A stretch of 61,593 nucleotides of DNA from Bacteroidales bacterium (GTDB lineage: Bacteria; Bacteroidota; Bacteroidia; Bacteroidales; P3): the NCBI GenBank assembly GCA_017962665.1, contig JAGCUU010000030.1, forward strand, positions 1-61,593. The letters run 5' to 3'. This document shows positions 42,073 to 46,463 of this stretch, piece by piece; the first letter of the stretch is position 1; every line of letters begins with the position of its first letter. A model generated the notes under the pieces. The model did not search any database. It saw nothing but the letters and a program-made list of their open reading frames with translations, and had not been told where the DNA came from. The position numbers and the translations under genes were made by a program.

Positions 42073-42600
42073 ATGAAACATGACGTTGATACTGAAATTC
42101 ATTTCAGCGGTTTAAAATCAGGTGTTTATGACTATGATTACGTGCTGGATGATAATTTCTTTTCAGAGTATAAAAATGAAAAAATACTTGGAGGAAATGT
42201 GTGTTTCAAGGTGCGGTTGGATAAAAAAGAGCGTTTGTTGATGTTTTATTTTAACTTCTCCGGTGAGGTGCGGACTTTGTGTGACAGATGCCTTGGTGAG
42301 CTGGTATGGCCGATGAGTGGGGAGCAGACGCTCTGTGTTAAATTTAGCGATACAGAGCATAGTGATGATGAGGACGTGGTTATTCTTCCCGAAAAGGCCT
42401 ATAAAATCAATCTGGCTTCGTGGATGTACGAATATGTAGCTGTTGAGATGCCTATCCAGTGCTTCCATCAGGATGATGAAAACGGAATCCCGACATGCGA
42501 TCCAGAGATGATGAAATATCTCACGAAAGAGCAGCATGTGGAAGAAGACAAAGAGGAGATTGACCCACGCTGGGCCGCCTTGACTAAATTGAAAAAATAA
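42073..42600 (+). CDS. DUF177 (YceD-like) protein
   Basis: A 175-residue acidic protein with CDRCLGEL near its centre, the conserved 'C..CL' motif of DUF177/YceD, and Glu/Asp-rich stretches (EHSDDEDVVILPE, VEEDKEEIDPRWAAL). DUF177 genes sit directly before rpmF in most bacteria; the family is linked to 23S rRNA accumulation. rpmF starts 20 bp downstream. Confidence 0.9.
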   Translation: MKHDVDTEIHFSGLKSGVYDYDYVLDDNFFSEYKNEKILGGNVCFKVRLDKKERLLMFYFNFSGEVRTLCDRCLGELVWPMSGEQTLCVKFSDTEHSDDEDVVILPEKAYKINLASWMYEYVAVEMPIQCFHQDDENGIPTCDPEMMKYLTKEQHVEEDKEEIDPRWAALTKLKK

Positions 42601-42620
42601 ACAAATAAAAAATATTAATT

Positions 42621-42806
42621 ATGCCACATCCAAAACACAGGTTCTCTCAAACGAGAACAAGAAAGAGAAGAACGCATGACAGCCTTGAGACTCCTCAGCT
42701 GACTACATGCAGCAACTGTGGTGCTCAGATTATGATGCATCATGTATGTCCCGAATGCGGATACTACAGAGGTAAACTCGCTATCGAAAAGAACGTAGAG
42801 GCATAA
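42621..42806 (+). CDS. rpmF: 50S ribosomal protein L32
   Basis: A 61-residue bL32 starting MPHPKHRFSQTRTRKRRTH. Four cysteines (C30, C33, C43, C46) form the zinc ribbon CSNCG...CPECGYYRGK. In many bacteria plsX or fabH follows; here a terminator follows and the next genes are on the other strand. Confidence 0.97.
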   Translation: MPHPKHRFSQTRTRKRRTHDSLETPQLTTCSNCGAQIMMHHVCPECGYYRGKLAIEKNVEA

Positions 42807-42824
42807 CCTTACAGGTTGCACAAA

Positions 42825-42865
42825 AGAAAGAGAGCCTTCCATGAAAATGGTAGGCTCTCTTTCTA
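42825..42865. terminator. terminator between rpmF and the RiPP operon
   Basis: AGAAAGAGAGCC and GGCTCTCTTTCT form a 12-bp perfect stem with inner pairing around ATGAAAAT. It can serve rpmF; it is also 15 bp past the last gene of the convergent operon. Confidence 0.88.
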
Positions 42866-42879
42866 TTAAGGAACGTTGT

Positions 42880-43356
42880 CTATTTCCTTATGTAATAATA
42901 GTATTTATCGTTGTCTTTGAGTGGACCCATACAAGTTAACCCAAGATATGTCAAAAAAGTCTGGGCGGGTTTGTTTTGACGAAGTACTGTTGATGAAATA
43001 ATCTTTTTTGGAAACAGTTCTGTAATGGCCTGAATAAAAATCCGTCCCAATTCAAAATAGGCTCTGATGGCGAAACTGCAGTCTTTGTTATAACTCCCAT
43101 GTAATTGTATCTCGCCGTAAAAATACAAGTCTATCACCCTGAAAAAACCAACAAATTCATTGTTCTTCGTTAACGTGAAAAAGTGGTCCAGCTCCGTTAA
43201 GGATGGCTCGCCATCGGGAGGAAAACTTTTCATTAAAACGTCATGAGACAAAAGAGGTATGAACTCATAAGGGTTGTCACAATAAGTTAAAGAGATGTCT
43301 CTGTGACAAAGCTTGATGCTTTTAATCTTCGGATTAACGCTTTTTTCGTCTTTCAT
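42880..43356 (-). CDS. GNAT-like acetyltransferase of the graspetide-type cluster
   Basis: A 158-residue protein with GNAT shape: a beta strand FFTLTKNNEFVGFFRVIDLY, a helix region FAIRAYFELGRIFIQAITEL (acyl-CoA pyrophosphate loop position), and the C-terminal 'N..A..FL..LG' pattern NKPAQTFLTYLGLTCMG. Exact CoA-loop residues are not obvious. It overlaps the ATP-grasp gene by 23 bp, so the two are co-translated. Microviridin clusters pair an ATP-grasp ligase with a GNAT N-acetyltransferase, and this gene is likely to acetylate the matured peptide (inference). Confidence 0.65.
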   Translation of the reverse strand: MKDEKSVNPKIKSIKLCHRDISLTYCDNPYEFIPLLSHDVLMKSFPPDGEPSLTELDHFFTLTKNNEFVGFFRVIDLYFYGEIQLHGSYNKDCSFAIRAYFELGRIFIQAITELFPKKIISSTVLRQNKPAQTFLTYLGLTCMGPLKDNDKYYYYIRK

Positions 43357-44338
43357 ATTCCTCCTTTAGTACATCTGCAAATTTCTGGGAGATCGGCAGA
43401 CGGGCCTCTTCCTCCAGCCATACCCATTGCCCATTAGTATTGCATTCCAAAAAGATGTATTCCCCTTCTTTGTTCACAATGAAATCGAAACAACCGAAAT
43501 TTAAATCAAAATAGTGAAGGTATTCTTTGCATTTCTGAGCTATTGATTCTGGAATTGTCGTTGGAGAAAACTTGATGCCATAGTCATATCCTTGTCTCCA
43601 ATCGACAGCACCTTCCTCTTCTTTCTGTACTTGGCTGTCGATTTTTGCTGCGAAGCATTCGTCTTTTATCAGCGTGACCCGCAATTCGTATAATTTATCC
43701 GTGTACTCTTCAATGAAATTGATATTGTTTTCAAATGAAGATTTCCCCAAATCTATAATTTGCTGTGCGGAAACCCTTCTTGTGTAAAAGACCAAATCGC
43801 CGGAATCATCGTAGGGTATATGGTCTGATGATATCGGTTTGATTGCCAGGTCGCTGTAGTCTAAATTGGTAATGGTGGAATATTCGTTTGTGAAGATCGT
43901 TTTAGGAATGTTGAAGCCGAGTCGTCGGGCTATGATTTTTTGCAGGATTTTGCTTTGTGCACGTCGTTCATTGATTGGGTGACCTATCCAGAAAAGATCC
44001 ATTCCTGTGAGTGCATATCTGAAAAAACGCATGAAACCGTCAGCTTCATCCAATAGCACCTTTTCAACATCTTTATTGTCGAAAGGGGTTAATGTGTACA
44101 ACGGTTCCATAGGTCGCCTTTCCCAAACACAGGTTATCTCGTCGCTTGAAATGGAGTGGGTGCCGTTTTTGTATTTGAGTGAAAAAGAGATATTGTCATT
44201 TTTCAAGGTGTAGGTGATGTCATAATCCGTTAACAGACAGTCTGTGTTTAAACGGAACAGGGGTACACCTAAAGCGTTTAGTTTTTCAATAACAAGGTTT
44301 GGATGAGAATCCAATTGATTTGTTATCAATAATATCAT
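43334..44338 (-). CDS. ATP-grasp RiPP ligase, MvdD/graspetide type
   Basis: A 334-residue enzyme from MILLITNQLDSHPNLVI, the family start; the frame is open 14 codons upstream through a hairpin and is not used. Family marks: RLNTD (29-33), CVWERRP (70-76, the 'VWxRRP' motif of peptide-cyclising ATP-grasps), KPIS (167-170, ATP lysine), FDFIVN and the metal-binding FLECNTNGQWVWLEEE (E298, N300, Q304). These enzymes activate Asp/Glu side chains with ATP and join them to Thr, Ser or Lys as esters or amides. A 78-residue peptide gene lies 62 bp upstream and a GNAT gene overlaps the 3' end. No SPASM protein is present. Confidence 0.85.
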   Translation of the reverse strand: MILLITNQLDSHPNLVIEKLNALGVPLFRLNTDCLLTDYDITYTLKNDNISFSLKYKNGTHSISSDEITCVWERRPMEPLYTLTPFDNKDVEKVLLDEADGFMRFFRYALTGMDLFWIGHPINERRAQSKILQKIIARRLGFNIPKTIFTNEYSTITNLDYSDLAIKPISSDHIPYDDSGDLVFYTRRVSAQQIIDLGKSSFENNINFIEEYTDKLYELRVTLIKDECFAAKIDSQVQKEEEGAVDWRQGYDYGIKFSPTTIPESIAQKCKEYLHYFDLNFGCFDFIVNKEGEYIFLECNTNGQWVWLEEEARLPISQKFADVLKEEYERRKKR

Positions 44339-44342
44339 GGGA

Positions 44343-44386
44343 GATGTATAAATAAAAATAGGTGGAGGGTTATTCTCCACCTATTT
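44343..44386 (-). terminator. terminator/attenuator hairpin between precursor and ATP-grasp genes
   Basis: Perfect 12-bp stem: 44356-44367 pairs with 44375-44386 around a 7-nt loop (AAATAGGTGGAG with CTCCACCTATTT), followed on the minus strand by TTTTTATTTAT. It ends 5 bp before the ATP-grasp start. Partial termination here would make the precursor in excess of its enzyme. Confidence 0.82.
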
Positions 44387-44400
44387 AGAAAATCACTGGT

Positions 44401-44637
44401 TTATTTTTCCTTTGCGTCGTCATTAACGTTCTTATAGGTGGGGAAAAGGAGACCTTCTCTCTTTGCAGATCTGGTAACCTTTTGGTCGCTACCCATGAAC
44501 ATCGGCAGATTGATAATCTGTGATTCGTAATCATAGCTGTGTGTTCCTGCGTATTTTACCTCTTCTTTTGGCTCGAATTTGCCGAAAGCAATGAAAGCAG
44601 GAATACTGTTTGATTGATTATAAGTATATGTATTCAT
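44401..44637 (-). CDS. candidate RiPP precursor peptide (78 aa)
   Basis: A 78-residue peptide beginning MNTYTYNQSNSIPAFIAFGK. Residues 12-22 (IPAFIAFGKFE) resemble the helical 'PFFARFLE' leader motif that graspetide ligases recognise. The C-terminal third (residues 53-78) is rich in Thr, Ser, Lys, Asp and Glu: TRSAKRE, then PTYKNVNDDAKEK, so T67 with D73 or D74 are possible ring partners. No cysteine occurs, which excludes thioether or lasso-type logic with Cys. It sits between a TerB-like gene (14 bp upstream) and the ATP-grasp gene. I know of no close relative; the precursor role is inferred from size, composition and context. Confidence 0.6.
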   Translation of the reverse strand: MNTYTYNQSNSIPAFIAFGKFEPKEEVKYAGTHSYDYESQIINLPMFMGSDQKVTRSAKREGLLFPTYKNVNDDAKEK

Positions 44638-44651
44638 ATTATATAATGTTT

Positions 44652-45059
44652 TTATAGATTTAAAACCGACTTAATTTCGTTAATCATTTTCTGCTCAGTC
44701 TCAGAAATGCCGTCTGAACTTTCAGCAGTTGAAACCATAAGGTCAACAATGATTTCCTGTAAATTTTTGCGTTCTGCAATTTCCTCTTTTATGCATGAGA
44801 AGATCATCTCTTTGGTTTCGTTGTTGGCGCCGATTAATTGGGATAATTCGGCATACATTTCAAAGGCAATTAAATCATCTTCACCTGCAGCTTCTTTTAC
44901 TGCACTCACTAAATTCCTTTTCTCAAGTTCGTCATAGTCGCCATCGGCTGTTGCAACCAAAACTGCCGGGTACATTAACATCATTGATGAAAACTGATCA
45001 ATGGTAAGGCATGTATGCCTCTGCTGTTGATACTTAGTAAATAACTCTTTTACTTTCAT
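44652..45059 (-). CDS. TerB-like helical protein, first gene of the RiPP operon
   Basis: A 135-residue all-helical protein. VATADGDYDELEKRNLV (36-52) matches the TerB metal-binding repeat 'A.ADG..D..E', and STAESSDGISETEQKMI (108-124) is the second repeat. TerB domains bind divalent metals and occur in stress and membrane-associated systems. As the promoter-proximal gene before the precursor peptide, it may act in immunity, sensing or peptide delivery; that is inference. MKVKELFTKY is the natural start, about 120 nt below the promoter. Confidence 0.75.
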   Translation of the reverse strand: MKVKELFTKYQQQRHTCLTIDQFSSMMLMYPAVLVATADGDYDELEKRNLVSAVKEAAGEDDLIAFEMYAELSQLIGANNETKEMIFSCIKEEIAERKNLQEIIVDLMVSTAESSDGISETEQKMINEIKSVLNL

Positions 45060-45184
45060 GATTAAAAGGTTTTAGTTAAAAATGTTATTTCATTTTTTTT
45101 TGTTTGTCAAATTGTTGGTTGTCTATTGATTGTCAGTGGATTATATTGGGTGTATTAAAATGCATCCCATTCCAATTAACAATG

Positions 45185-45215
45185 CAAATTTACTGATAAA
45201 ACTTATATGTGCAAA
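45185..45215 (-). promoter_or_regulatory. promoter of the TerB-precursor-ATP-grasp-GNAT operon
   Basis: On the minus strand TTTG (45212-45215), 19 nt, TAAATTTG (45185-45192): consensus Bacteroidota promoter. The leader to the TerB start is about 120 nt. Confidence 0.78.
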
Positions 45216-45377
45216 TAATCACCATGGGAATTTTATCTTTATATGAAAGATTTGAATAAGTTATTGAAAAGACTATCAATACTTATATGATATGTTTGTT
45301 TTGTTTATAAATGGTGCTGATAAAAGCAATTGTTGCAAAAAAAACAGTGTTTTTCCCCTTTTTTAAAAAAAAGTACG

Positions 45378-45385
45378 TAACTTTG
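45378..45385 (+). promoter_or_regulatory. -7 promoter element of the leader RNA at 45388
   Basis: TAACTTTG directly followed by CAGTCGCAAACC, the same junction as upstream of the LRR gene (TACTTTTG-CAGTCGCAAACG). The -33 region is poor. Confidence 0.6.
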
Positions 45386-45387
45386 CA

Positions 45388-45632
45388 GTCGCAAACCGCT
45401 AGAAAAGGTTTGCTGTAAGAATGCGCATTTGCGCTCTATTCCAGCAATGTGAAAATGGACACTTCATTTTGTGGTTACAGGGATAGAGTTTGGTGAATGC
45501 TCCTAAGGTGCGTATCCGTATTGTTACGATACTAGCCCAGTGGAGCAAATCGTTAAGACTTTATTTTGTACCACAGGGAGTCCAGCCCTCACATTGAAAA
45601 TAGGGTGTTGATGGATGGCTCCACTTTCTTGT
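45388..45632 (+). ncRNA. putative structured 5' leader RNA, copy 1
   Basis: P1 hairpin GCAAACC (45391-45397)/GGTTTGC (45407-45413); P2 hairpin GCG-CATTTG-CGC (45423-45434); P3 stem CTCTATTCC (45434-45442)/GGGATAGAG (45480-45488); a hairpin with conserved ATTGTTA loop near 45519; long-range pairing GTGGAGC (45540-45546) with GCTCCAC (45618-45624). It ends CCACTTTCTTGTTTTTG. Shared with 36372-36612 and, in reduced form, 982-1180. The downstream gene starts 70 nt after the 3' end. Confidence 0.65.
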
Positions 45633-45701
45633 TTTTGTTTTTTTTCTCTCATCGAGCCGTGGGCATAATTATACGTTGCGCCCGACACTTAGGGCTTTGT
45701 T

Positions 45702-46463
45702 ATGAGAAAAATATTGTTTTTATTTGCAGCTGTTGTTATTTTAGCGCCTGCCTTGAATGCTCAGGATGTTATTACTTTGAAGAATGGTGAAGAAATACAA
45801 GTGAAAGTCACAAAAGTTGGTGAAAGTGAAATTGAGTACAAGAAATGGAGCAACCAGAATGGACCGACATACACGAAGCCCGTTTCGGAAATATTCATGA
45901 TCAAATATGAGAATGGTGATAAGGATGTGTTCAATCAAACCAATAATAACCAAAATAACCAACAACAGTATCAAGGTTCTCGTATAAACAAAGCACAAGG
46001 AGATGTATACCAAGAAAGGATTGGTAGTGACCGTATGCGTAGAGATAGGAGAGATCTAAAAATTGGTTCCCGTGAATTGTCTGAAAATGATATTCGTCAA
46101 ATATTTTATGAAGATGGTCTTTCTACATATAACAAAGGTCGTCGAAACTTTGCTACTGGTAATGTATTATGGCCGATAGGATTTGCAATGGGGATCGTAG
46201 GTGACATTGTTTATATTGCGTTATCGTTAGATGATGATCCAGGATTGGGTGTCGCTATTGGACTCCCGCTTTCTAGTGTGGGCACGGGTTTGTTTATTAC
46301 TGGTTTGATTTTGAAAGGTGTTGGCAAGGGTCGACTTAATAGTCTTGTCGAAGATTATAACAGCGGGCGTGGAAACACTTTGAGTCTATCGGTCCAACCA
46401 ACGCTCATGCGCACTTACGACAAGTCTTACGCTCCAGGCGTTGGAATCGCCTTGAGATTCTGA
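45702..46463 (+). CDS. exported protein of unknown function
   Basis: A 253-residue protein with signal peptide MRKILFLFAAVVILAPALNAQ. Residues 22-70 (DVITLKNGEEIQVKVTKVG, KPVSEIFMIKYENGDKDVF) form a small beta domain common at the N terminus of Bacteroidales exported proteins. An Asn/Gln linker follows (NQTNNNQNNQQQYQ), then a helical part with two hydrophobic segments near 150-200 (VLWPIGFAMGIVGDIVYIALSL and GTGLFITGLILKGVGKG), and a terminal GVGIALRF. It is expressed behind a structured leader. Location could be the inner or outer membrane. Confidence 0.8.
   Translation: MRKILFLFAAVVILAPALNAQDVITLKNGEEIQVKVTKVGESEIEYKKWSNQNGPTYTKPVSEIFMIKYENGDKDVFNQTNNNQNNQQQYQGSRINKAQGDVYQERIGSDRMRRDRRDLKIGSRELSENDIRQIFYEDGLSTYNKGRRNFATGNVLWPIGFAMGIVGDIVYIALSLDDDPGLGVAIGLPLSSVGTGLFITGLILKGVGKGRLNSLVEDYNSGRGNTLSLSVQPTLMRTYDKSYAPGVGIALRF

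Follow-up and report, generated by a model that had tools for sequence, protein, structure and literature searches.

What does a bacterium make with a gene for a 78-residue peptide set ahead of one for an ATP-grasp ligase and behind one for a TerB-like protein? The question is raised by four genes in the window, by which I mean the whole stretch of DNA analyzed, 61,593 nucleotides of contig JAGCUU010000030.1 from a Bacteroidales bacterium. I propose that the genes are an operon for a graspetide (an omega-ester/amide peptide) of a family centered on the Bacteroidota, and I would put the chance that this explanation holds at about three in four. The original prediction, made from the DNA letters, had four frames in a certain order, and they are real: all lie on the minus strand, where a promoter is followed by the TerB-like gene, the 78-aa frame, the ATP-grasp gene, and a gene encoding 158 aa. 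The parts are these:

45185..45215, minus strand: promoter TTTG-N19-TAnnTTTG, an exact match
44652..45059, minus strand: TerB-domain protein, 135 aa, first gene of the operon (PF05099, phrog_632)
44401..44637, minus strand: predicted graspetide precursor, 78 aa (24-row family A1; held-out profile)
44572..44604, minus strand: leader motif IPAFIAFGKFE, precursor residues 12-22 (Pro13 in 24 of 24)
44461..44475, minus strand: putative donor motif TRSAK, precursor residues 55-59 (Thr55 invariant)
44416..44421, minus strand: putative acceptor pair Asp73-Asp74 (both in 24 of 24)
44356..44386, minus strand: stem-loop of 12 pairs between precursor and ligase genes (fold test)
43334..44338, minus strand: ATP-grasp ligase, graspetide-synthetase relative, 334 aa (maturase models, PDB, conserved residues)
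42880..43356, minus strand: 158-aa protein, no family assigned (no Pfam, NCBIfam or credible PDB match)

The promoter lies exactly where it had been predicted. Its pattern, which I take to be of the Bacteroidota type, is matched nine times in the window against an expectation of 1.32, and none of 100 shuffled sequences reached nine. Neither sigma-70 promoters (8 in the window scan, 8.3 in shuffles) nor intrinsic terminators (2 and 2.5, chance level) are in excess, and Rfam has no match over 42600-45700. The operon is flanked on one side by yceD and rpmF and on the other by genes for an unknown protein, an EamA transporter, and a thioredoxin-like ferredoxin subunit. A Pfam scan of ten neighboring window proteins found no SPASM, C39 peptidase or ABC-transporter domain; the SPASM protein that had been declared missing is thus absent from the operon and from these ten neighbors alike. 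A nearby 253-aa protein (45702-46463) has no Pfam match and has relatives in six of 20 other genomes searched. The yceD-rpmF pair is present in eight relatives, in which no other tested window gene has kept its position beside it, save for a plsC-like match at the edge of L078 (loci of relatives carry L numbers here), so an insertion at this place is not demonstrable.

The best start of the ligase gene is the ATG at 44338, where the alignment of its relatives begins, rather than the upstream GTG at 44380. Four peptide-maturase models match the protein with 108 to 193 bits, every curated cut-off being missed: TIGR04187 (E 7.1e-57, 193 bits, cut-off 350), TIGR04185 for MvdC (E 2.7e-49), TIGR04184 for MvdD (E 4.1e-43) and TIGR04192 for grasp-with-spasm (E 5.7e-31, 108 bits, cut-off 230). 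The RimK model gives only 17 bits, and PF21068, the MvdD pre-ATP-grasp domain, reaches 36.8 bits, over its cut-off of 27. These scores, from the profile search that had been suggested, bear out a ligase of graspetide type and do not put it in a non-RiPP clade, an outcome that the original prediction had named as fatal to itself. The sequence marks on which that prediction leaned are there as well, VWxRRP as VWERRP and ECNTNGQW as written. The nearest solved structures in the PDB are 5ig8, 5ig9, 7mgv, 7m4s, and 9bou, microviridin-type ligases, which are macrocyclases. As judged by sequence, then, the ATP-grasp is a graspetide-synthetase relative.

Comparison of the 24 ligases of the family (delimited below) adds detail. 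Residues kept in all 24 and common to annotated MvdC, MvdD and TgmB include R74, R75, K130, K167, R220, D246, R248, D285, E298, and N300, and those invariant in this family specifically include H12-P13, C270, and C299. Residue 218, in an acid-x-R motif, is Glu in all 24, and I equate this Glu-x-Arg (residues 218-220) with the 'DFR' motif described as critical in PMC13097080. In a tree of 51 proteins, lacking rows for L014, L021, L026, L027, L046, and L051, a branch with support 100/99 puts the 24 family rows and two outliers of great length (L029 and L030) on one side and, on the other, 25 rows that include MvdC, MvdD, TgmB, and grasp-with-spasm types; inside the family the branching has weak support. 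L012 is of genuine grasp-with-spasm type (TIGR04192, 259.5 bits). L010 (197-2475) and L011 each have two adjacent ATP-grasps, arranged alike, which the tree places with MvdC and MvdD. Some ATP-grasp match is found in 30 of 393 genomes of the order, and one such ligase was found in the source genome, whose contig set is 76.6% complete.

An enzyme of this kind calls for a substrate, and the 78-aa frame appears to be it. At 24 loci a homologue of 77 to 92 aa lies directly upstream of the same enzyme (alignment A1). The aligned frames were picked by position and by eye, so the adjacency of precursor and ligase is partly built into the set, which leaves out L048 and L051 (partial ligase, no visible precursor) and L062/L006 (a different precursor). 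A profile made without the window's row ranks the 78-aa frame first among 1377 frames (E 5.1e-11); with the nearest relative removed too it is still first (E 1.8e-5, the next at 1.9), the rows having first been aligned together with the window. The alignment of neighbors that had been called for thus finds the frame conserved in homologous neighborhoods, where its absence was to have counted against the original prediction, and on this conservation I take it to be a genuine precursor.

The family is narrow. It occurs in five of 393 genomes of the order, at one place each, beside the ligase, all five being rows of A1. A wider search of 395 genomes of the phylum returned the window itself and one other match, in G480 (E 5.1e-4), which was dismissed as it carries three stops. 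Plasmids searched with the peptide of L034 gave no precursor relative. No member has a credible match in Pfam or NCBIfam; the few matches concern single members, at E 0.004 to 0.1, and unrelated families. Judged by title or order, and for the window by its relatives, all loci but one fall in the Bacteroidota (23 of 24), and the exception, L037, titled Clostridiales, has a ligase that groups in the tree with that of L038, from Bacteroidetes; it is likely a misassigned contig or a recent transfer. One metagenome-assembled genome, RUG13189, has two separate family loci (L049 and L050). The precursor set aside above, that of L006/L062, is 115 aa long, lies directly upstream of its ATP-grasp, and has a repeated TETFT..EPSDSD-like core unlike A1.

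The columns of A1, counted over 24 rows and numbered as in the window, suggest how such a precursor would work. The leader block that had been proposed, IPAFIAFGKFE, covers the conserved part of the N-terminus: besides Pro13, Leu or Phe at 15 and a hydrophobic residue at 16 are found in all 24, and IPAFIAF fits the graspetide leader signature Phhx(1,2)h (PMC8939145). A middle block follows, with Tyr35 in 24 rows and Gln40 in 23. The core had been placed at residues 53-78, a stretch that takes in the invariant Thr55 and the Asp73-Asp74 pair. On the donor side, residue 57 is Ser (19) or Cys (5) and residue 59 Lys (17) or Arg (7); on the acceptor side, the two invariant Asp are accompanied by Asn70 (23 rows), Lys76 (23), and Lys69 (21). 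As for the ring partners put forward, Asp73 and Asp74 stood the comparison and Thr67 did not: residue 67 is Asp in 20 of 24 rows and Lys in L031, the nearest relative, leaving Thr55 as the candidate donor. From Thr55 to the Asp pair there are 18 to 32 residues across the family, and from the pair to the C-terminus 0 to 9, with 4 or 5 in 22 of 24. I read Thr55...Asp73-Asp74 as a stapled loop.

Two features of the loop vary within the family. Residue 71 is Glu in 18 of 24 rows and Val in the window, and a second Thr, eight residues after Thr55, occurs in 16 rows and is absent from the window and L031. Lacking Glu71 and the second Thr, the window peptide could form fewer rings than its relatives, and the same may hold for L031. 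On faster change of the loop the evidence is mixed. Compared with the part before the donor motif, the part after it shows lower similarity in L035/L036 (54.5 vs 76.4%) and L037/L038 (70.4 vs 89.1%), and higher similarity in L044/L045 (46.9 vs 35.1%) and window/L031 (70.0 vs 48.2%). Faster change is not uniform: two of four pairs show it and two the reverse.

I propose the following course of events. The ATP-grasp would bind the N-terminal Pro-hydrophobic helix of the precursor and use ATP to phosphorylate the side chains of Asp73, Asp74, or both. The hydroxyl of Thr55 (possibly that of Ser57, or Lys59 to give an amide) would attack the activated Asp, closing one or two rings with the loss of 18 Da each and stapling a loop that is variable in length and sequence. 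The TerB protein would most likely assist the modification, as a partner or as a chaperone. Removal of the leader, and a function for the product, are presumed.

The stem-loop in the gap between the precursor and ligase genes folds with -18.2 kcal/mol (z -4.86, none of 200 shuffles as good), and in L031, the closest relative, a hairpin of unrelated sequence sits in the same gap (-27.9, z -7.04). It is possibly a partial terminator or a processing site, one that comes from a fold test of its own while the terminator scan stands at chance level; most likely it would keep the level of precursor above that of enzyme. The device would not be general. The distance from precursor stop to ligase start is -4 to +9 nt at 21 of the 24 loci (303 nt in L047; 62 in the window, counted from the ATG, or 20 from the upstream GTG), which leaves no room for a stem-loop in 21 of the 22 loci besides the window and L031.

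The TerB-like label given to the first gene is sustained by PF05099, at 22.5 bits under the cut-off of 24.4, and by phrog_632, 'tellurite resistance' (E 1.2e-6). A TerB-like gene lies directly upstream, on the same strand, at seven of the 24 loci: L031 and L060 have homologues of the window's protein in the same place, and L037, L038, L059, and L061 have other TerB proteins. With the protein of L038 counted as a homologue of that of L037, six score 53.0, 35.5, 27.8, 24.6, 22.5 (window), and 20.8 (L060) in Pfam, the last two below the cut-off. Clustering divides the TerB proteins into three sequence groups, so TerB and graspetide genes probably came together on more than one occasion. At the remaining 17 loci the gene directly upstream is not a TerB gene; L049 has a short remnant in that position.

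Is seven of 24 more than chance would give? The background is 37 TerB matches in 21 genomes, about one per 1,300 genes (gene number estimated). A binomial calculation (n=23, not 24, and an estimated total of 48,000 genes) gives 8e-7 for at least three TerB loci, a figure that is indicative only, as related loci are not independent. Even with relatedness allowed for, this is a strong excess over background. The proposal that TerB acts as partner of the ligase is borrowed from the two systems in PMC13097080 whose graspetide ligases need a partner protein. A TerB partner of graspetides is not described in the literature searchable by text.

Another view is that the product is a stapled small protein that keeps its leader and stays inside the cell, acting with or on TerB or in conflict between host and phage. 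Among gene clusters shared by at least two loci, some of them scanned with Pfam, no recurring C39 transporter or peptidase, ABC transporter, protease, or SPASM gene was recognized, as one would expect of a peptide that is never exported; and the conserved middle block with Tyr35 and Gln40 goes beyond a simple leader. Moreover, PADLOC matched four of nine submitted proteins, all from the flanks of relatives: PDC-S26 (L044 and L043), a GmrSD/Orf5-like protein (L037), and a methyl-directed restriction enzyme (L039). The match in L044 is its PDDEXK_4 protein; in L032, L044, and L045 a gene for such a protein lies within about 12 nt of the ligase gene or overlaps it, and these loci have the PDDEXK_4 protein and a small membrane protein downstream of the ligase. 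Some copies of the family may thus sit among defense genes. The window operon gives no such sign, however, its TerB and ATP-grasp having been submitted to PADLOC without a match. Moreover, proteases that remove graspetide leaders are often encoded elsewhere (PMC8939145), and two recurring types of neighbor, a small membrane protein and an SH3-domain membrane protein (four loci each), could serve for export. On balance I think an intracellular product unlikely. I would give still less credence to the more elaborate idea of a mini-protein tied to stress or phage conflict, with fixed staple, diversifying loop, and TerB partner, acting inside the cell.

I return to the graspetide reading and to how the operon compares with known systems. 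Graspetides, which include plesiocin, thuringinin, and rosaritide (PMC8939145, PMC13097080), have in common an ATP-grasp with a small precursor, a Phhx(1,2)h leader, and a C-terminal core of Thr/Ser/Lys and Asp/Glu. The operon has a ligase of the right superfamily (MvdC/MvdD/TgmB), an adjacent conserved precursor, the leader motif, and core donors and acceptors, but neither Pfam nor NCBIfam has a model that matches its core, T-x-[SC]-x-[KR]...DD-x-K, or its middle block, Y-[DN]-x3-Q. Microviridin and chryseoviridin (group 1) have a related ligase and a comparable Pro-hydrophobic leader motif, PFFARFL. In contrast, there is here one ligase and not an MvdC/MvdD pair, the enzyme lies outside the MvdC/MvdD rows of the tree, and the TxKxPSD core, rightly said to be lacking, is found neither in the window peptide nor in the consensus of the family. 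The grasp-with-spasm systems (branch 5 of PMC8939145, group 14 of PMC13097080) share Bacteroidota hosts and a related ATP-grasp, whereas no SPASM gene is seen here and the TIGR04192 score is far below cut-off; the TgmB/SAV_5884 type is likewise set apart by the shortfall against TIGR04187. The closest parallel for TerB is in rosaritide (MirB/MirC) and corallotide (CorB/CorC), where a co-occurring protein that is not a ligase is needed by the ligase (PMC13097080), but MirC is chaperone-like and CorC an oxygenase, neither of them TerB, and TerB in this family is not strictly conserved. PMC8939145 has 174 families of graspetide precursor and PMC13097080 has 24 plus 19 groups; the present family may already be among them, set apart here by Pfam, NCBIfam, and text only. 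It appears to be a new offshoot of an established natural-product class.

A ligase of this superfamily might instead be a RimK-like tailing enzyme that adds residues to the end of the peptide and makes no rings, and the nearness of the conserved Asp pair to the C-terminus would suit such an activity. I find this very improbable: RimK's 17 bits compare poorly with the 193 of TIGR04187, a conserved Thr paired with conserved Asp is what cyclization through side chains requires, and the solved relatives are macrocyclases. That the 78-aa frame is incidental, its ligase acting on a substrate encoded elsewhere as in some graspetide groups (PMC8939145), is scarcely credible given conservation at 24 loci, tight coupling of the precursor gene to the ligase gene, and detection by the held-out profile, which nearly excludes it.

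If the graspetide reading is right, a class of multi-ring peptides that draws interest for protease inhibition and as scaffolds gains a precursor family for which Pfam and NCBIfam apparently have no model. With its donor and acceptor motifs fixed and the 18 to 32 residues between them differing from locus to locus, such a peptide would be a natural scaffold for the display of loops. The association with TerB makes it possible to test the dependence of graspetide synthesis on a partner, reported so far for only two systems (PMC13097080), and could give a TerB-domain protein a biochemical role.

The last gene has been left aside. It shares 23 bases with the ligase gene and plausibly belongs to the operon. 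Its product had been called GNAT-like, by likeness to microviridin clusters, but it matches no acetyltransferase model, and the label found no support in Pfam, NCBIfam, PHROGs, PDB sequences, plasmids, phages, viral contigs, or genomes. The only PHROGs match is phrog_651 (E 0.17), and viral contigs hold no relative of this protein or of the ATP-grasp. A search of 374 genomes from the order gave two weak partial matches, 47 and 64 residues long at E about 0.001; one of them contains a stop, and neither was taken for a relative. Among 61 relatives there are seven matches besides its own, at E 0.013 or worse, and the frame downstream in L060, interrupted by a run of N, gives a non-significant BLASTP E of 0.17; a relative is demonstrated at no other family locus.

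Upstream in L031 and L040 are small proteins of about 103-118 aa that the two loci have in common, two copies in L040, and the one scanned from L040 has no significant Pfam family. On the Pedobacter plasmid pA27BH1 (L068, 2168-5954), a RimK-like ATP-grasp is found beside proteins annotated as lasso peptide B2 and as related to asparagine synthase, possibly a mixed graspetide/lasso locus.
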